Part shown: positions 4,159-26,571 of the stretch, in pieces | Layout of the letters: each line of letters begins with the position of its first letter | Position numbering within the stretch: position 1 is the first letter of the stretch | From: Planctomycetota bacterium | GTDB lineage: Bacteria > Planctomycetota > Phycisphaerae > UBA1845 > UTPLA1 | Length of the DNA: 64,000 bases | Reading direction: 5' to 3' | NCBI GenBank assembly: GCA_015654675.1 | Contig: JAATGM010000042.1 | Location: 62,001-126,000, forward strand | The notes under the pieces: model-generated | Told to the model about the DNA's origin: nothing | Databases searched by the model: none | Seen by the model: the letters and a program-made list of their open reading frames with translations, nothing else | Program-made: the position numbers and the translations under genes

Positions 4159-6864
4159 CTACTTCTTAACGAGCTGCCGGAGAACCATCTGCAGGATTCC
4201 ACCGTGACGGTAGTACTCAACCTCGATTGGCGTATCAATGCGAACCTTTACCGCGAATTCCTTCTTCGCCCCCTTCTCGTCCGTCGCAGCAACCGTCAGA
4301 TCCTGCCCCGGCTTCAAGTCCCCGGAGAGGCCGACGAAATCGAACACTTCGCGGCCGGTCAATCCGAGCGATTCTCGCGTCTGACTCGGCTTGAACTGCA
4401 GCGGCAGGACGCCCATTCCGACAAGATTGCTGCGGTGGATGCGCTCGTAGCTCGTCGCGATCGCCGCGCGAACGCCCAGAAGCATCACTCCCTTCGCAGC
4501 CCAGTCGCGCGATGATCCCGTGCCATACTCGGCGCCCGCCATCACGATGAGCGGAGTGCCGGCCTGCTTGTATTTCATCGCGGCATCAAAGATGGACATC
4601 TGCTCACCGGTGGGTAAATAGATCGTGAGGCCGCCTTCGGTCCCCGGGGCCAACAGGTTTCGCAGCCGAATATTGGCGAACGTACCACGCGTCATGACCC
4701 GATCATTTCCGCGCCGCGCTCCGTAGCTATTGAAGTCTTCGGGCTTCACGCCGTGATCCAGCAAGTACTTGCCGGCCGGACCAGACTTGCTGATCGACCC
4801 CGCAGGGGAAATGTGATCGGTCGTGATGGAGTCGCCGACCATCACGAGGCAGCGTGCGTTACGGATCTCAGCGATCTTGCCCGGCTGGGGGCTGAGGTTT
4901 TGAAAGAATGGCGGTTCCTGAATGTAGGTGCTTTCGGAGTTCCACTGGTAAACGCTCTCGTCGGTTGCTTTCAACGCTCGCCACTTATCGTTGCCAGTCA
5001 GCACATCGGCATATCGCCTTTTGAACATCTCTGGAGTGACGAACCTAGAAATTGCGTCCTCGATTTCATTCGACGAGGGCCAAATCTCTCGCAAAAAGAC
5101 GGGCTTCCCGTCCCGCGCAGTTCCGAGCGGCTCAGACGCGAGATCAATGTCAACCGTGCCGGCAATCGCATACGCAACGCAGAGCGGCGGAGACGCGAGG
5201 TAGTTCGCCTTCACGAGCGGATGAACGCGGCCCTCAAAGTTGCGGTTGCCCGACAACACCGCCGAGACGACCAGATCACTCTCCGTCACCGCATGCGCGA
5301 CGGGTTCCGGAAGCGGCCCGCTGTTTCCAATGCAAGTGGTACAACCATATCCAACCGTTTGGAATCCGAGCTGATCAAGATACGGCGCCAGGCCCGACGC
5401 CTCGAGGTATTCGGTGACGACGCGCGAACCTGGGGCGAGACTCGTCTTGACGTGCGGCTTGACAGTCAGGCCTCGCTCAACGGCCTTTTTCGCCAACAGG
5501 CCGGCAGCAAGCATGACCGAGGGGTTGCTCGTATTGGTGCAGCTCGTGATCGCCGCGATAACGACCGCGCCCTGCCCGATCGACGTTGAGTGTCCATTGT
5601 CGCGAATGGTCGCGGTCTTTGACGCGGCGGCATCGTCCAAAGCGAATCCGCGCTCGGCTGTCGGCGCTCGAAGCGCTGATCGGAAAGAGGATTTCACCTG
5701 CGTCAGGGCGACTCGATCCTGCGGGCGTTTAGGCCCGGCCAGGGATGGTTCGACTGACGAAAGATCAAGCGAGAGTACGTCGGTGAAGGCTGGATCCGGC
5801 GTCGCATCCGTTCGGAAGAGGCCCTGCTCTTTGCAATAGCGCTCGACCAGCGCGATTTCATCCGGCGTGCGGCCGGTGCGGCGCAAATACGCCAGGGTCT
5901 CCGCATCAACCGGGAAGAAGCCCATTGTCGCCCCATATTCAGGCGCCATATTGCCGATCGTCGCCCGATCGGGCAGAGACATGTTTGACAGGCCGCCGCC
6001 ATAGAACTCCACGAACTTGTTAACAACGCCCTTCTTTCGAAGCATCTGGGTGACCGTCAATACCAGATCGGTCGCGGTTGCCCCTTCGCGAAGCCGACCA
6101 GTCAGCTTGAATCCGACGACCTCCGGAAGCTGCATATAGATGGGCTGGCCGAGCATGTTCGCCTCGGCCTCGATTCCGCCGACGCCCCACCCAAGTACGC
6201 CTAGTCCGTTGACCATGGTCGTGTGGCTATCCGTGCCAACCAGCGTGTCGGGGAAGGCAGCCCGAACGCCATTCAATTCGCGCGCGAGCACAACCTTGGC
6301 AAGGTACTCAATATTCACCTGGTGACAGATTCCGGTTTCAGGCGGAACAATCCGCACGGCACTGAACGCCTTCTGACCCCAGCGAAGGAACTCGTATCGT
6401 TCCTTATTGCGATAGAACTCAAGATCGGTGTTGAGCTGGAGGGCGTCATTCGAGCCGAACGCGTCAACCTGAATCGAGTGATCGATGACAAGGTCAACCG
6501 GCACGAGCGGATTGATGCGATTCGCGTCTCCGCCGAGTCGCGCGACGGCCGAGCGCATCGCTGCCAGATCGACCATGCACGGCACGCCGGTGAAGTCCTG
6601 CAAGAGTACCCGCGCCGGGAGATATGGAATCTCGCCACCTTCGCCGCTCTTGGGCTGCCAACCGGCGATGGTCTTGATGTGCGTGTCCGTCACGAGAAAG
6701 CCGTCGAAATTGCGAAGCGCGTTCTCGAGAAGAATTTTGATGCTGAAGGGCAGGCGTTCGATCCGGGCGATTGAGGCGAGGCGCTCAAGTCGCCAGATTC
6801 GCACGGGCCCCGAAGCGGTTTCAAGGGTGTCGATGGCATGAAACGGATCGATCATCGCAGACAT
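4159..6864 (-). CDS. acnA: Aconitate hydratase A
   Basis: [4Fe-4S] enzyme interconverting citrate and isocitrate in the TCA cycle. The 901-residue length matches AcnA/IRP1-type aconitases. Cluster ligands are visible as [10 protein letters not shown] (Cys near residue 442) and [12 protein letters not shown] (two Cys near 507-511). Substrate-binding segments include DSHTTM near residue 210 and the swivelling C-terminal domain with [14 protein letters not shown]. An AAAGG ribosome binding site lies seven bases before the ATG. It is divergent from proA across about 130 bases. AcnA proteins can have regulatory RNA-binding roles, but nothing here shows that. Confidence 0.97.
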
Positions 6865-6993
6865 GTCGGGCCTTTCAGGGTGTGTTGGTACGTGGCGGAG
6901 TCCAGCGCCGCCATGTTTTTGTGGGAGTTTAGCACAATTCGATCGCTTCCGTCAGGCCGCGGCCGATGCGCCGAGTAGGGTTAGAATGATGGT

Positions 6994-8238
6994 GTGTCGA
7001 CTCCGGACTCGATCGCTCAATCTGCCCGTCGCGCAGCCGGCGAAGTATCAACGCTCCCGACCGAGCGAAAGAACTCGGTTCTGATTGATCTCGCGGACAC
7101 GATCGATCGGGAGCAGGGTCGTGTTCTAACGGCGAATCACGCAGACCTCGACGCGGCACGGACGACGGGACTCGCGGACGCGAAAATACGCCGACTGACG
7201 CTGACTCCGACGGTCCTCCGCCAAATCGTTGACGGACTGCGACAAGTGGCCGCCCTCCCCGATCCGGTCGGACAAGTGTGTTCAGACCGGCAAGTTCCTT
7301 CCGGATTGCGTGTGCAGCGCGTCCGCATTCCCTTGGGCGTGATCCTCATGATCTATGAGGCGCGGCCGAACGTGACCATCGATGCGTTCGGGCTTTGCTT
7401 CAAGGCGGGGAATGCGTGCATCCTAAAGGGTGGCCGGGAGGCCGGCCGGTCGAACGCGACCTTGATCGAACTGATTCACGAAGTACTTCAACGGCACGGA
7501 GTTTCGCCGGCGGTCGCCGCGCTGGTCACATCGTCCGATCGCGACGAAATGCGCGCCTTACTTCAATTGCATCAACTCATCGATCTGGTCATTCCCCGCG
7601 GGGGACTCGAGCTCGTTCGATTCGTTCACGAACATTCGCGCATTCCGATCGTCCAGCATTTCATGGGCGTCTGTCATATTTTCGTCGATGACTCGGCCGA
7701 CCTGGAGCGAGCCATCGAGCTGTGTGCGACGGCGAAGACATCGGCGCCGGCGGCCTGCAATGCAATGGAGGCCGTTCTCGTACACCAGGCAGTTGCCCAA
7801 CAATTTGTGCCTCGTCTGGTCGAACGGCTGACGCGGGAGGGCGTCGAGATTCGCGGCGACCCGCTTGTGTGCAAGCTTGCTCCCGCCGCCACGCCGGCGC
7901 TGCCGGAAGACTGGGGTCGGGAGTTTCTCGACCTCATCTGCGCGATTCGCGTTGTCTCCGATGTGGAAGCGGCCATTGAGCACATCCAGCGACATGGCTC
8001 GAACCACACCGAAGCAATTCTGTCGAACAACAAGGAACATCAGAGACTATTTCAGGAGCGAATTCAGTCGTCGTGTGTGATGGTGAATGCATCGACGCGC
8101 TTCAATGACGGGTTCCAGCTCGGGCTCGGCGCGGAGATCGGGATCAGCACTTCCAAAATTCACGCATACGGCCCCATGGGGCTGGATGAGCTGACGACGC
8201 AGCGATTTGTCGTTACGGGCGATTACCAGTCGAGATGA
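6994..8238 (+). CDS. proA: Gamma-glutamyl phosphate reductase (ProA)
   Basis: NADPH-dependent reduction of gamma-glutamyl phosphate to glutamate 5-semialdehyde, the second step of proline synthesis. The 414 residues are normal for the family. Recognisable parts are YEARPNVTIDAFGLC, KGGREAGRSN for cofactor and substrate binding, and the catalytic cysteine in CNAMEAVLVH at residue 255. The C-terminus has the typical STSKIHAYGPMGLDELTT. The start codon is GTG with only a weak AGGG upstream. The last 26 bases overlap the end of the convergent glycosyltransferase gene. proB is not in the window. Confidence 0.96.
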   Translation: MSTPDSIAQSARRAAGEVSTLPTERKNSVLIDLADTIDREQGRVLTANHADLDAARTTGLADAKIRRLTLTPTVLRQIVDGLRQVAALPDPVGQVCSDRQVPSGLRVQRVRIPLGVILMIYEARPNVTIDAFGLCFKAGNACILKGGREAGRSNATLIELIHEVLQRHGVSPAVAALVTSSDRDEMRALLQLHQLIDLVIPRGGLELVRFVHEHSRIPIVQHFMGVCHIFVDDSADLERAIELCATAKTSAPAACNAMEAVLVHQAVAQQFVPRLVERLTREGVEIRGDPLVCKLAPAATPALPEDWGREFLDLICAIRVVSDVEAAIEHIQRHGSNHTEAILSNNKEHQRLFQERIQSSCVMVNASTRFNDGFQLGLGAEIGISTSKIHAYGPMGLDELTTQRFVVTGDYQSR

Positions 8239-10564
8239 CGGACTCGCTCTGCAGCGAAGCGGAAATGAACGCGATTAGCCGCTTCCAGTGTGCGTCGTAA
8301 CTGAATCGGGCGATCGCCGCCGTACGCATGTTTTGTGCAATCTTCTCGCGCAATGCGTCGTCGCGGAGTAACGTGTCAGCGGTCGAAGCCAATGACTCGG
8401 CATCGCAAAAACTGATCTGCGGCAGGTCCGGCAATAGCGCAATTGCATCCGGTTCGAGCGGAATGGTCTTCAGCCAGAATTCTGTTCCAACATCCATCGC
8501 GTCGGACGGCGCCCCGTCGGCTGAGCGCGAATGCACTCCATCAGAAATTGTTGCCTCCACGATGCTCGACTGTCGTTGTTGCGCAATAGTCAGCAATCGC
8601 GGACGCTCGATGTCATAGCGCGTCGATCGCGTGAGGAAAGCGCCGCCGGCCGCCAGTCCGTCGAGGGACCGAGAATGAAGAAATCCGCCCTCTATCAATT
8701 GAAGATTCAGCCGCGCACCGCGACACGCCGCGACGAATTCATCTCCGAATGCGACACGGCCGGCCGCGAAACGCGCCAGCCGGGAATGACGATCCCAGCC
8801 GTTCCCGTAGAGATGGAAACTTCGGCCCGCTTGCTCGGCATAGTGCGCGACACATTCAAGCGCGAAATGACGAAATGCGCGATCCGATAGCGACATGCAC
8901 GTCATGCACAATTCTCGAACGAGCGCGTCAACCAGCTTCACGCCCGACTCGGCGGCGACACGGACAACCAGCGAGTGAATCTCGCACGGCGTCCAATTGT
9001 GTCCCGCAGCCGCGCAATCCAGGAGCTGATCGGTCACTCCGAGATAGATTCGAGAAACGACCGGATGGCCGGCCCAGCTTTCCGCAAAGCGAACGCGCAT
9101 TTCGCGCGGAGTCTCTGAACAATGACTGATGTAAGCAATGTCGCAGCGAAATCGATCGTCGATGGGCAAGTCGGGCAGGGCGCACACATATGCATGCGAC
9201 GGTGCGATTGGCACATCCGCCAACGCCTGCGATGCCGGCCAGCCCAGGTGCGAAAGGCCGAACCACGCCCCGTAACCCGCGACAAACGTCAGCCGGTCAA
9301 GACTTATTCCGGCCTCCGTCGTACGCATGATGGGGAGGGCGTCCTGGTCCCACGAGAGAAACGGGATGTTCCGCGGAATATCCGGGAACTCGTGTCGCAG
9401 GCGCGAGAGCATCACGATCAGATCGGGCTCGAAGCTACGGACATGCGCCGGCACGTTGTATTCGATGGCGTGATCGAACTTCTCCCAGACCAGATGAGTC
9501 TCGCACCCGGCGCGGGAGGCGGCGTCCAAAAGCTCGCGCATGGAATAGCGCAGGACAGTCGTAAAACGCGAAGTGATCCCCATGACTCGGAGCGGGCGTG
9601 CGCGTCCGTTGATGGCTGTGGCAAATCGGGAGGCCCAGTATCGGAAATCCGCATTTTCGTGCCGGTTGTTGACCTCGGCGATTGTAAGCTCTTTGTTCCG
9701 CGCTCGATCTCCGGCGAGCGATGAAATCGATTCGTGCAGTCGAGTTGGCGAACGGTTCGTCAGCGGCAAGCGCTGAACACTTGCCGGGATCGGTTGATTA
9801 GGATCGGCCTCCAGGAACGCGAGAAAGTCTCGCTCCGCGTTTGGTCCGGCAAATATCGAAAACCGCGACTCGGAGAAAGTGGTCGTCCAATCCCACACTC
9901 GTAGGGTTATGGCGAGCGCAGCGGGATCGGGCTCAACGATAGACACCGCGGCGCTGTAAGAGAGAAACGTGTTTCGCGATCGTCGCACGAATTCGTCAAA
10001 GAGTTCGCCCAGGCCAATGCCATCGAAAACTATGGGCGCGGATGGGTTGATGGGCGAACGCCCGGAGAAGGCGGCGACGGCCGCAGCTTGCCGATCGGCG
10101 AGCCCGCCGCACCAACGAAGCGAATCCAGATCGAGCACGTGATGGGCCCCGCGAATGTCGCGGTAGAGTTCGAACCCGCTGAGACCCACGGCAGCGACGG
10201 CATGCGCGACTTCGGGAAATCGTTGCTCGATCGCTGCAAGATTACCGTTGAAACAAGCGGCGCACGTCTCCCACGGAACACACCCCGACGGACATCGACG
10301 AACGACCTCGCCTAACTGCTCGAGACACTGCCGCGCATCTGGCTCAACAGCATCGGAGCCCAGCACCCGCTCGATCAGACGACGACCCGCGCCCCCGAGG
10401 CCGAGCGCGACGAGTGCTTTCAGATAGTCTGTGAATGCCGCCGAGTCTCCGGCATCCGCCGATAGCCGCCGAAGCGCATCGCATGCGCCGGCGTAATGAT
10501 CGCCGCGTAACGAAGATGCTGAACGGACTGCGCTGGTGGCCGTAGTCATGATATGGAGATTCAT
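8213..10564 (-). CDS. CgeB-like glycosyltransferase
   Basis: A large (783-residue) cytosolic glycosyltransferase-like protein. The N-terminal 80 residues look like helical, TPR-like repeats. The middle third has no clear family signature. The C-terminal 400 residues look like a GT-B glycosyltransferase of the CgeB/DUF3880 type: PDLIVMLSRLRHEFPDIP, then the late segment LHSRSLDGLAAGGAFLTR, which resembles the family's sugar-nucleotide binding motif, and a final helical segment FSYDAHWKRLI. It is the last gene of a three-gene minus-strand cluster behind an epimerase and a GT2-radical SAM fusion, so a role in surface glycan or protein glycosylation is inferred. ATG at 10549 is an alternative start; neither has a clear ribosome binding site. 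Confidence 0.75.
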   Translation of the reverse strand: MNLHIMTTATSAVRSASSLRGDHYAGACDALRRLSADAGDSAAFTDYLKALVALGLGGAGRRLIERVLGSDAVEPDARQCLEQLGEVVRRCPSGCVPWETCAACFNGNLAAIEQRFPEVAHAVAAVGLSGFELYRDIRGAHHVLDLDSLRWCGGLADRQAAAVAAFSGRSPINPSAPIVFDGIGLGELFDEFVRRSRNTFLSYSAAVSIVEPDPAALAITLRVWDWTTTFSESRFSIFAGPNAERDFLAFLEADPNQPIPASVQRLPLTNRSPTRLHESISSLAGDRARNKELTIAEVNNRHENADFRYWASRFATAINGRARPLRVMGITSRFTTVLRYSMRELLDAASRAGCETHLVWEKFDHAIEYNVPAHVRSFEPDLIVMLSRLRHEFPDIPRNIPFLSWDQDALPIMRTTEAGISLDRLTFVAGYGAWFGLSHLGWPASQALADVPIAPSHAYVCALPDLPIDDRFRCDIAYISHCSETPREMRVRFAESWAGHPVVSRIYLGVTDQLLDCAAAGHNWTPCEIHSLVVRVAAESGVKLVDALVRELCMTCMSLSDRAFRHFALECVAHYAEQAGRSFHLYGNGWDRHSRLARFAAGRVAFGDEFVAACRGARLNLQLIEGGFLHSRSLDGLAAGGAFLTRSTRYDIERPRLLTIAQQRQSSIVEATISDGVHSRSADGAPSDAMDVGTEFWLKTIPLEPDAIALLPDLPQISFCDAESLASTADTLLRDDALREKIAQNMRTAAIARFSYDAHWKRLIAFISASLQSESVISTGNRP

Positions 10565-22976: not shown

Positions 22977-23057
22977 CTTGTGTCGACTTTGGACATTGCG
23001 TTGCCAGTCTGAAACCGGAAGTCGCGCGATTTGGTTGGTGGTTGGAGTGCGGTATCG

Positions 23058-24239
23058 ATGTATGCACGCTTGATGATTGTCTGGATCGGCTTGCTCGCGA
23101 CTGGGGGTATTGGCTACGGACAAGAGCTGATCAAGCCGCCGGAGGTGGAAAAGCCGGCGCCGGATTTCAAGGTGACTCCGGTTGGCGGGGATCGCAAAGA
23201 GCCGATCACGCTGGCCGACTTCAAGGGGCAGACGCTCATTCTAGAGTTTTGGGCGACCTGGTGCGGGCCGTGCCACCAGGCGCGCGAAGAGCTGACATTG
23301 CTGCACAAGGAGTTCGCCGATCGCGGATTGCGAATACTGGCCGTCTCGATGGAGCAGCCGGAAGTCGTGGAGAAGTTCATCCAGAAGCACCCGGTTCCGT
23401 ATCAGGTCGCCGTAGATCCGCTGCGGGCAATCAGTCTGAAATACCCCTGCGGGGGAATCCCGACGTCATACATCATTGATTCGAAGGGACTGGTGCGGGC
23501 GTTTGGAAATACGCCACCTCGGAATTACATCGCCCAACTGTTGTCACAGCGTACCGACCCGCCGCGCGCAACAGTGACGACGCAGCCGGTCAAGCGGCAT
23601 GAGCGGCCGTGCCTCAAGATTGAGATCAGCCAGACGAGCCGGCGGCCGAAGTTTCCAGGGAACTTCGGATGGAGCGTCGGCGGGCGAGAGCTGGGGTTCC
23701 AAGCCGACCAAGCAACGCTGCAAGCGATCATCTCCGAGTTGCTAAAAGTGAGCATGCTAAGAGTACAAGCGAGTGATTCGGCGGTCTTTGATTCGCGATG
23801 GGACATTGATTTCAGGCACCATCCGCAGAATGGAAGGCCGGACCTTGCGCTGCTGATTGATGCCTTGTGCCGAGAGGCCAATGTAACGATCAATGAGGTG
23901 AGCGAAGAGCGCGAGGCGTGGGTTGCGCGACACAAAGGCGATGCTCCGCCCAAAGGGGAGGGATACGGATATGTCTGGGACCAGGTGAAGAAGTCCGGTA
24001 CGCATTTGAATGTGAGCATGGCGGAGCTGTTCCGTGTTAGCGAGGAAGTGATCGGCGTTCCTATAGTGGATGAGACGAATTTGACAGGGAGATATCGTCT
24101 TGAGCTCCCGGCCGCGAAGAACTTTGAGGAAACGCGGGCGGCGCTTGAGACGAAGTATGGCATCTCATTTACCAAGGAGCGGCGGAAGGTGCCGGTTTAT
24201 CGAGTGACGCCTATCGGGGAAACGCGGCGCGCGGAGTGA
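23058..24239 (+). CDS. TlpA-like thioredoxin domain fused to a DUF3738-like domain
   Basis: An exported protein of 393 residues. After a signal peptide (VWIGLLATGGIGYG) comes a TlpA/ResA-like thioredoxin domain with the redox motif WATWCGPCHQ and the cis-Pro loop GGIPTSYIID. After about residue 165 the second half carries repeated alpha/beta segments. It ends with VPIVDETNLTGRYRLELP, the hallmark of the DUF3738/TIGR03435 family found in acidobacteria and planctomycetes. The ATG is preferred over an in-frame TTG at 23031. It acts in the periplasm; the thioredoxin half probably reduces or swaps disulfides, and the role of the second domain is unknown. Its end nearly touches the convergent Ni/Co transporter gene. 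Confidence 0.85.
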   Translation: MYARLMIVWIGLLATGGIGYGQELIKPPEVEKPAPDFKVTPVGGDRKEPITLADFKGQTLILEFWATWCGPCHQAREELTLLHKEFADRGLRILAVSMEQPEVVEKFIQKHPVPYQVAVDPLRAISLKYPCGGIPTSYIIDSKGLVRAFGNTPPRNYIAQLLSQRTDPPRATVTTQPVKRHERPCLKIEISQTSRRPKFPGNFGWSVGGRELGFQADQATLQAIISELLKVSMLRVQASDSAVFDSRWDIDFRHHPQNGRPDLALLIDALCREANVTINEVSEEREAWVARHKGDAPPKGEGYGYVWDQVKKSGTHLNVSMAELFRVSEEVIGVPIVDETNLTGRYRLELPAAKNFEETRAALETKYGISFTKERRKVPVYRVTPIGETRRAE

Positions 24240-24243
24240 TTGA

Positions 24244-25011
24244 TCAAGCCCAGACGGAGTAGGCGTAGTAGAGGCCGAAGCAGATGCTTCCGATGCCTGC
24301 GAGGCCGCAGAGAGTCTGGTGGAGCTTTTCGTAGCGACCGGCGGCTGCGGCGATGGGGACGCTGACTAGTCCGCTCATAATCAGCATTCCGCCGATGGTG
24401 CCGACGCCGAAGACAATAATATAGACCAGGCCGGTCGTGACGGTGGGGAGCTGTTGCATGACGAGGACGGTGAGGGCGCCGCTGCCGGCGAGGCCGTGGA
24501 TGGTTCCGACCAGAACGGCCTTGCCACGCCAAGGGAGGGCATGCTTGTGGGCGTGCACGTGTTCGGTTCCGTGATCGTGTGAATGAATGTGGGCATGGGC
24601 GTGTCCATCATGCTCGTGGGCGTGGACATGAATGGTCTTTTCGCGGAGCAGCCGGACAAGAACGCCGACACCGAGGATGATGATCATCACGGCGACGCCG
24701 GTTTCAAGCGCGTGTTCAATACGTTCGGGGATCTTGGTTCGGAGAAGGAGCAGGGCAAGACCGGCGATAAGCAGGGCGAGGGTGTGGCCGATGCCCCACA
24801 TGGCGCCGACGAGGGCGGATTTCCAGATGGATTTGTGTTCGGTGACTATGGTGCTTACGGCGACGACGTGATCGGCTTCTGTGGCGTGTTTGAGGCCAAG
24901 GACGAAGCCAAGTCCGAGCGTGGCGGCCAGCGTGGTCGGGACGGCATGGCCCGCCGTTTCGGCCAGAACATAGATTGAATTGTGGTCCATTGAGGGCCGG
25001 CCCTTCGGCAT
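24244..25011 (-). CDS. Nickel/cobalt transporter-like membrane protein (UreH/NicO type)
   Basis: An inner-membrane metal transporter of 255 residues with about six helices. The signature HATEADH (H-x4-DH) lies in GLKHATEADHVVAVSTIV in the first helices, as in NiCoT and UreH-type transporters. A central cytosolic loop of about 40 residues is very rich in His (HVHAHEHDGHAHAHIHSHDH), a likely metal-binding region. The chosen ATG has GGGAGGGG eight bases upstream. It is divergent from the DUF4198-FmdE gene across 70 bases, and that partner is also metal-related, so the two may share control and substrate. Nickel versus cobalt cannot be told. Confidence 0.88.
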   Translation of the reverse strand: MPKGRPSMDHNSIYVLAETAGHAVPTTLAATLGLGFVLGLKHATEADHVVAVSTIVTEHKSIWKSALVGAMWGIGHTLALLIAGLALLLLRTKIPERIEHALETGVAVMIIILGVGVLVRLLREKTIHVHAHEHDGHAHAHIHSHDHGTEHVHAHKHALPWRGKAVLVGTIHGLAGSGALTVLVMQQLPTVTTGLVYIIVFGVGTIGGMLIMSGLVSVPIAAAAGRYEKLHQTLCGLAGIGSICFGLYYAYSVWA

Positions 25012-25080
25012 CAGCCCCTCCCGCCAAACGGCTGACGCTCCGGTATCATATCCCGCGGATTGAATAAAGGAGAATTGGTC

Positions 25081-26571
25081 ATGGGACAGCGAGCGAAAAT
25101 GCGTCGATTGGCGGGATTGTTGGTGTTCGTTTGGACCGGCACAGCGCTGGCCCACGACTCGTGGCTCGTTCCGGATAGCAGCCGCGCAAAGCCGGGCGAG
25201 GCGTTGCGGGTGATGTTTATTACGTCGGAAAACTTTCCGCAGCCGCAATCGCCAACGAAGGCGGATCGGGTGGATGAATGGGTAGTGATTGCAGGCGAGG
25301 GCCGCAAGGAAATAAAGAACGTCTCGCCCGAGCAGAACGGATTGTCGGCCACAGTCGAGCCGGTAGAGCCGGGCACAAGCGTCGTCGGCCTGGCCCTAAA
25401 GGGTAAGTTGATCGAGCTGGATCGCGCCAAGTTTGAACAATACCTCGCGTCCGAGGGGGCTGAAGCGGCATTGCGCATATTGAGGGGCCGCGGCGGCGAT
25501 GAGCCGCAGCGCGAGCTCTATACAAAGTTTGCCAAGACATATATCGAGGCCGGTGGAACACCTTCAGCCGCGGCCCCACCGGCGATTGGGCATGCACTGG
25601 AGATCGAGCCGCAGAGCAATCCGTCGTCATGGATGGTCGGCCAGAAAGCGCGCGTTCGTGTTTACAAGAACGGCAAGCCGGCGGCTGGGTTGCGAGTCTC
25701 GACGGGACGCGAAGGCTTGCCGCCCCACGCGTATGGGACAACCGTTACAACTGATCGCGACGGCTATGCGGATTTCACGCTGGATGCGCCGGGCCTGTGG
25801 TTCCTTCGAACCCACACCATTGACAACGTGAAGCACGCGGGCGGCGAATACGACTGGGCGAGCTTGTGGGCCTCGATGACGTTTCCGGTAGCGGTCGAGT
25901 CGCATGCGGCTGCTGTTCCACGAATGTCCCCGCAGGCCGTCGCGCCGAGTGAGAAGCCGAAGTTGGTAGCGCCACCGCCCGCAATGAGCGAGCGTCCGGC
26001 CGCACCAGCCCAGCCGAGCACGCCGGCGTCGCCGCATGCGTCAATGGCGGCACCACCGACGGCGATTAACCGGGCTCCAGCCCAGCAACCGAAACCGCAA
26101 CCGGCGGCGATTGCGGCCCCCGCAAACAGTCCGGCAGCCAGCGATGCGCAAATTGACGCGATGCTCGAGGACGTCCGGGCCATTCACGGCATGCCGGGAC
26201 CCTGGGCCGTGGCGGGCTATCGGATGGGACAACGGGCGCTGCGCGAACTCGGCCTGCCGCGCGGGAGCTTTGATCTGGACGTCACGCATGAGAGTCCGCA
26301 GAAGGTGCAATACACCTGCATCGCTGACGGAGTGCAGGCCGCGACTGGCGCGAGCGCCGGCAAGCTGAACCTGCATCTGCGCGATGCCGAGCCGAACAAC
26401 ATGCGCACGGCATTCGTGCGAAAGTCGACGGGCAAACGCGTGGTGATCGAACTTTCCGATGCGGCGCGCGAACGGATGATGGACGTTCCGTATGAGCAGT
26501 TGGAAACAGAGGGGCGCGTGATCGCCGGAATGCCAGAGGGCGATCTCTTGATCGTGGTCGTGGAAAAGTGA
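25081..26571 (+). CDS. Exported DUF4198 / FmdE-like fusion protein
   Basis: A 496-residue periplasmic protein. A signal peptide ends in GTALA, and the mature protein starts HDSWLVPD, the DUF4198 (putative nickel-uptake periplasmic component) beginning with an exposed N-terminal His. The DUF4198 domain runs to about residue 275 (KPGEALRVMF, VGQKARVRVYKNGKPAAG). A Pro/Ala-rich linker of about 80 residues follows. The C-terminal 140 residues match FmdE-type domains: IHGMPGPWAVAGYRMGQRAL, then YTCIADGVQAATGASAGKLN, with the conserved Cys and Asp. The usual HGH is HGM here. AGGAG precedes the ATG. Divergent from the UreH-type transporter. A metal-binding or sensing role is inferred from context. 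Confidence 0.8.
   Translation: MGQRAKMRRLAGLLVFVWTGTALAHDSWLVPDSSRAKPGEALRVMFITSENFPQPQSPTKADRVDEWVVIAGEGRKEIKNVSPEQNGLSATVEPVEPGTSVVGLALKGKLIELDRAKFEQYLASEGAEAALRILRGRGGDEPQRELYTKFAKTYIEAGGTPSAAAPPAIGHALEIEPQSNPSSWMVGQKARVRVYKNGKPAAGLRVSTGREGLPPHAYGTTVTTDRDGYADFTLDAPGLWFLRTHTIDNVKHAGGEYDWASLWASMTFPVAVESHAAAVPRMSPQAVAPSEKPKLVAPPPAMSERPAAPAQPSTPASPHASMAAPPTAINRAPAQQPKPQPAAIAAPANSPAASDAQIDAMLEDVRAIHGMPGPWAVAGYRMGQRALRELGLPRGSFDLDVTHESPQKVQYTCIADGVQAATGASAGKLNLHLRDAEPNNMRTAFVRKSTGKRVVIELSDAARERMMDVPYEQLETEGRVIAGMPEGDLLIVVVEK

Follow-up and report, generated by a model that had tools for sequence, protein, structure and literature searches.

The window analysed here is a 64,000-nucleotide stretch of planctomycete DNA. 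It contains two genes arranged head to head, with start codons 69 bp apart: a gene for an exported fusion protein on the plus strand and a transporter gene on the minus strand. The limits first read for this divergent pair, positions 24244 to 26571, hold. The features of the locus are as follows:

24244-25011, minus strand: gene for a NicO-superfamily Ni/Co-type transporter, 255 aa
24541-24630, minus strand: His-rich stretch HVHAHEHDGHAHAHIHSHDHGTEHVHAHKH of the transporter, residues 128-157
24868-24888, minus strand: HX4DH motif HATEADH of the transporter, residues 42-48
25012-25080, no strand: divergent spacer between the two start codons, 69 bp, taken from the sequence
25081-26571, plus strand: gene for an exported DUF4198-FmdE fusion, 496 aa
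25081-25152, plus strand: predicted signal peptide, 24 aa, cleaved after TALA
25144-25821, plus strand: DUF4198 domain
25153-25155, plus strand: mature N-terminal His1, equivalent to a nickel ligand of NikK
25228-25230, plus strand: Glu at the column of NikK His18
25894-26142, plus strand: Pro/Ala-rich disordered linker
26143-26568, plus strand: FmdE core domain, without the zinc-finger tail
26185-26199, plus strand: HGMPG, what is left of the HGHxC metal motif (first His retained, second His replaced by Met, Cys replaced by Gly)
26317-26319, plus strand: retained Cys at the position of the fourth metal ligand of FmdE (Cys55 in 2glz)

The fusion gene starts with an ATG, with AAAGGAG 7 nt upstream. 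The open reading frame of the transporter gene, listed up to 25248, is over-extended; translation likely begins at the ATG at 25011, which follows GGGAGGGG. No convincing sigma-70 consensus pair and no clear operator palindrome were found in the 69-bp spacer. A riboswitch or other RNA upstream was not found either, as two tRNAs were the only hits in the window at the Rfam gathering score. Just downstream of the transporter gene, at 23031-24239, lies a gene for an exported thioredoxin-like (AhpC-TSA) protein with a C-terminal DUF3738-like stretch.

In the fusion protein, the signal peptide is followed by the DUF4198 domain, then by the Pro/Ala-rich linker and finally by the FmdE domain; the same architecture was found in 12 other genomes. 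Both domains had been named in the sequence-only reading, and the profile check placed both far over the Pfam cut-offs: DUF4198 (PF10670) scored 115.6 bits against a cut-off of 34 at residues 22-247, and FmdE (PF02663) scored 67.3 bits against 22.9 at residues 368-464. NCBIfam has no family for the fusion protein. The cleavage predicted from the sequence (TALA/HDSW) leaves His as residue 1 of the mature protein, which agrees with the His-Asp N-terminus proposed earlier, and the AHD/VDS junction aligns across relatives. The AlphaFold model showed two confident domains (pLDDT around 95 each, with most blocks over 90) separated by a disordered linker (pLDDT about 40). In the case of the DUF4198 half, the model superposes on Zcp (9mhm) with a Z-score of 25.4 and an rmsd of 2.2 over 217 residues, and on Ni-bound NikK (9gcb) with a Z-score of 19.3 over 203 residues. 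The FmdE half matches three FmdE structures with Z-scores of 12.4-15.5 (15.5 for 2gvi, 15.0 for 2glz; the third is 3d00). Unrelated structures begin at a Z-score of 9.6, well under the DUF4198 and FmdE matches.

NikK, a DUF4198 protein, holds nickel by its N-terminal His and His18 with a Kd of 18 nM and sits in uptake operons (PMC12537917). In the model, residue 1 of the mature fusion protein lies on residue 1 of 9gcb and on residue 21 of Zcp. An alignment of 89 DUF4198 sequences was used to compare the ligand positions; the column of NikK His18 was fixed via close NikK-like sequences that have this His as residue 18, and not via the 9gcb sequence. His1 is present in nine of the 13 fusions and in 73 of the 76 other DUF4198 sequences, and the remaining four fusions have lost it (VDSW). 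The column of His18 is occupied by Glu or Asp in all 13 fusions; of the 76 other sequences, 31 have His there and 24 have Glu/Asp. Thus, of the two features of a NikK-type histidine brace, the window fusion has the N-terminal His after predicted cleavage and lacks the His at position 18. Because of the Glu/Asp at column 18 in every fusion and the loss of His1 in four, metal binding does not appear to be conserved across the fusions of the family. In the sampled sequences, Pseudomonadota and archaea mostly carry His at column 18, whereas many sequences from planctomycetes, Acidobacteria, and Bacteroidota have Glu/Asp there. A further group, most of it from planctomycetes, shows Asn at this column, within GNHGN[DE]HRD. 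The Glu/Asp split at this column suggests a second type of metal site in DUF4198, a domain known from one nickel structure and the Zcp set. The solved Zcp structures (PDB 9mhi-9mho) carry Zn, Cu, and Co. A single passing mention of Zcp was found in the literature, as a zinc- and Zur-regulated gonococcal gene, which may or may not be the Zcp of the PDB.

The metal ligands in solved FmdE proteins are the two His and the Cys of the HGHxC motif plus a Cys further along the chain; FmdE cores bind Zn or Ni, and most PF02663 genes adjoin metal transporters (PMC2954224). The conserved motif TCIADGVQAATG and the change of HGH to HGM, both pointed out before, were confirmed in the fusion. Beyond this, the alignment revealed that the third ligand is gone as well, since HGHxC has become HGMPG, and that the later Cys is kept. 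Two of the four ligands are therefore left in the window fusion. All four are found in canonical FmdE, and three in the lone FmdE of family f5 and in nucleoside hydrolase fusions. Two ligands remain in the fusions of the window genome (G000) and of genome G011 and in some f32 proteins, and one or none in the remaining fusions. The fourth-ligand Cys survives in G000 and G011 and in no other fusion aligned there. The fold residues G379, D416, G417, and A421 are invariant across fusions while the ligands vary, so the domain seems to be kept more for its fold than for metal. Metal handling, as the sequence-only reading had suggested, is well supported for the DUF4198 half by the published nickel binding of NikK (PMC12537917) and by the metal-bound Zcp structures. 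It is doubtful for the FmdE half, because half of the known ligands are lost in the window and more in most relatives, and this half is unlikely to form a full metal site.

The distribution of the fusion was analysed in 101 genomes, that is, the window genome and 100 relatives. Both halves occur in one reading frame only in the family of the window, in 13 of its 17 genomes and in nine genera. Outside this family, DUF4198 occurs by itself, and FmdE occurs either by itself or joined to a nucleoside hydrolase. In a scan of 84,980 species with two short peptides, which missed three known fusions, fusions were found solely in planctomycete records, nine of which are the same loci. The FmdE tree joins the fusions, with good support (SH-aLRT 99), to exported stand-alone FmdE proteins from a different planctomycete family, and canonical FmdE lies outside this branch. 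In the DUF4198 tree, the proteins of G000 and G011 group with lone DUF4198 of neighbouring families, apart from the other 11 fusions. Owing to this placement, both one fusion event followed by losses and two separate events are possible as judged from the trees. Exported fusions of inosine-uridine nucleoside hydrolase with FmdE were seen in several planctomycete families (L048, L085, L087, L088, L091, L106, L107; by Pfam in L048 and L085, by sequence in the others). At L048 (G062), the gene for such a fusion (6254-7753, plus strand) and a DUF4198 gene (7812-8675, minus strand) are arranged tail to tail, which links the two domains a second time. Tandem DUF4198 genes, two to five in a row, were observed at L156, L160, and L165 (Methanothrix and relatives), L132, and L138.

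The sequence-only reading had put forward, as a testable idea, a periplasmic metal chaperone or sensor feeding the transporter and called for a check of the gene pairing in relatives. The pairing gives limited support to this idea: the NicO-type gene adjoins the fusion in G000 and G011 but is unlinked in the other 11 of the 13 fusion genomes. With the NicO profile, nearly all genomes of the family gave a single such gene; G002 has two and G016 has none. G011 belongs to a different genus from the window genome, and the two transporters are placed in separate branches. Since they are only about 25% identical, either the pair formed anew or one transporter took the place of another at the locus. 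The retained FmdE Cys and the NicO adjacency were considered as two independent events shared by G000 and G011; this argument is weakened by the joint placement of the two fusions in the DUF4198 tree. The following genes lie convergently downstream of the fusion in relatives:

L033 5680-6417, L035 9311-10315, L037 5622-6311, L039 5708-6508, L042 9114-9959: MgtC-family genes
L036 3640-4092, L038 8581-9033, L039 6718-7176, L040 6845-7348, L042 8494-8913: small conserved ORFs with one likely membrane helix

An MgtC-family gene is the commoner neighbour, found in G009, G010, G011, G012, and G015 (four genera), and the small ORF occurs in several genomes; its copy in L036 has no Pfam match. Taken with the 11 fusions that have no NicO gene nearby, these neighbours are consistent with an accidental NicO pairing, in which the fusion would be an envelope metal buffer or a structural protein that works by itself or together with the MgtC-family proteins and the small membrane proteins. 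This reading is possible but doubtful, because the NicO gene is near single-copy and at least one further NicO-fusion adjacency among the 12 other genomes would arise by chance with a probability of about 0.006 (assuming about 4,300 genes per genome). Moreover, the MgtC synteny may reflect shared ancestry only, and the window contains neither an MgtC-family gene nor the small ORF. We regard the gene pairing as weak and the link to the transporter as suggestive, though rare. In family f5, a lone FmdE gene is part of an apparent operon at L114 (3988-7009, minus strand), together with genes whose products resemble, by sequence, a metal ABC binding protein, an ATPase, and a permease.

The transporter was recognized by PF03824 with 31.6 bits against a cut-off of 27.7. 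Residues H42, D47, and H48 of the HX4DH motif, which we take to be the signature of the NiCoT family, are invariant or nearly so in the transporter alignment, and ten His columns of the His-rich stretch are invariant. The transporter reached neither the NCBIfam cut-off of the HoxN/HupN/NixA subfamily (TIGR00802, 20.9 bits against 333) nor that of RcnA-type efflux (NF007454, 18.9 bits against 195). Searches of the window genome found neither a [NiFe] hydrogenase nor CbiM, nor a urease that passed the cut-off; a B12-dependent methionine synthase is present. With no hydrogenase and no urease over the cut-off found, there is no clear nickel client. On these findings as a whole, cobalt or zinc is at least as likely as nickel to be the client metal. 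The NicO superfamily includes RcnA, and the pair could export Ni/Co like RcnA of E. coli, with the fusion as an RcnB-like periplasmic partner buffering the metal outside. The long His-rich stretch, the nearly equal scores of the importer and RcnA models, both far below the cut-offs, and the lack of clear nickel enzymes in the window genome fit such an efflux pair. We nevertheless consider it unlikely: the transporter has the canonical NiCoT motif, the annotations of its best plasmid relatives read TauE/SafE, urease accessory, or nickel transporter protein, and NikK belongs to uptake operons (PMC12537917).

The sequence-only reading had noted that FmdE domains are otherwise linked to C1 (formylmethanofuran) metabolism; such a link is not supported here. 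A role of the FmdE half as an active metal or ligand site in formyl/C1 chemistry is suggested by the name of the family and the conservation of the DGxQxATG motif but is highly improbable, given that two of the four ligands are lost in the window fusion and three or four in most relatives, that the fusion is exported, that its FmdE branch is separate from canonical FmdE, and that no C1 genes were recognized near the fusions examined, nor any fmd/fwd genes in the lists of ORFs around the fusion loci.

The explanation that we prefer, to which as a whole we give about an even chance, is that the gene makes a periplasmic divalent-metal-binding protein with an FmdE half that is now mainly structural, probably serving the transporter in the window genome. 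After removal of the signal peptide, the chain would begin with His, and the side chain and free amino group of His1, together with the Glu in the place of the second His of NikK, would form a variant histidine-brace site. This site in the beta-sandwich of DUF4198 would hold a divalent transition metal (Ni, Co, or Zn). The flexible Pro-rich linker joins it to the FmdE-core domain, which keeps the fold and the dimer-interface motif without two of the four metal ligands; this domain would most likely serve for dimerisation or docking and may have a weak site made of His, Met, and Cys. In the window genome and G011, the protein would probably exchange metal with the NicO-type transporter encoded head to head. 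We also propose, tentatively, a broader reading, namely a family of two-part periplasmic metallochaperones, in which a His1 plus Glu/Asp brace is tied to an FmdE core and serves a secondary Ni/Co transporter; as part of this reading, the metal site of the FmdE core would have been lost step by step, and the core would now act as a dimerising or docking arm. The fusion offers a natural test of two questions, namely how much variation is tolerated in the recently described metal site at the N-terminal His of DUF4198, and which role the FmdE fold has outside C1 metabolism.

Among known systems, Zcp has the closest solved fold; it is about 20% identical to the fusion and has no FmdE domain. NikK of Ideonella sakaiensis shares the fold, the export, and the N-terminal His in the same place, and the literature ties it to nickel uptake. 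It differs in having His18 where the fusion has Glu, in lacking the linker and FmdE domain, and in its partner, which is an ECF/ABC system and not a NicO-type permease. The Anglerase-HupE/UreJ proteins (Ang-1, Ang-2; PMC12537917) are similar as an idea, that is, a periplasmic N-terminal-His metal catcher serving a nickel permease; however, their catcher is fused to the permease, whereas that of the window would be encoded by a separate gene, belongs to a different fold family, and carries an FmdE tail. The FmdE core proteins (2glz, 2gvi, 3d00) share the fold of the C-terminal half and the G/D/Q/T motifs of the groove and dimer interface. Unlike them, the fusion is exported, has HGMPG in place of HGHxC, and lacks the zinc-finger tail and an fmd operon. 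RcnA-RcnB of E. coli likewise combines a NicO-superfamily transporter with a periplasmic partner protein, but RcnB, to our knowledge, is not a DUF4198 protein as the putative partner in the window is.
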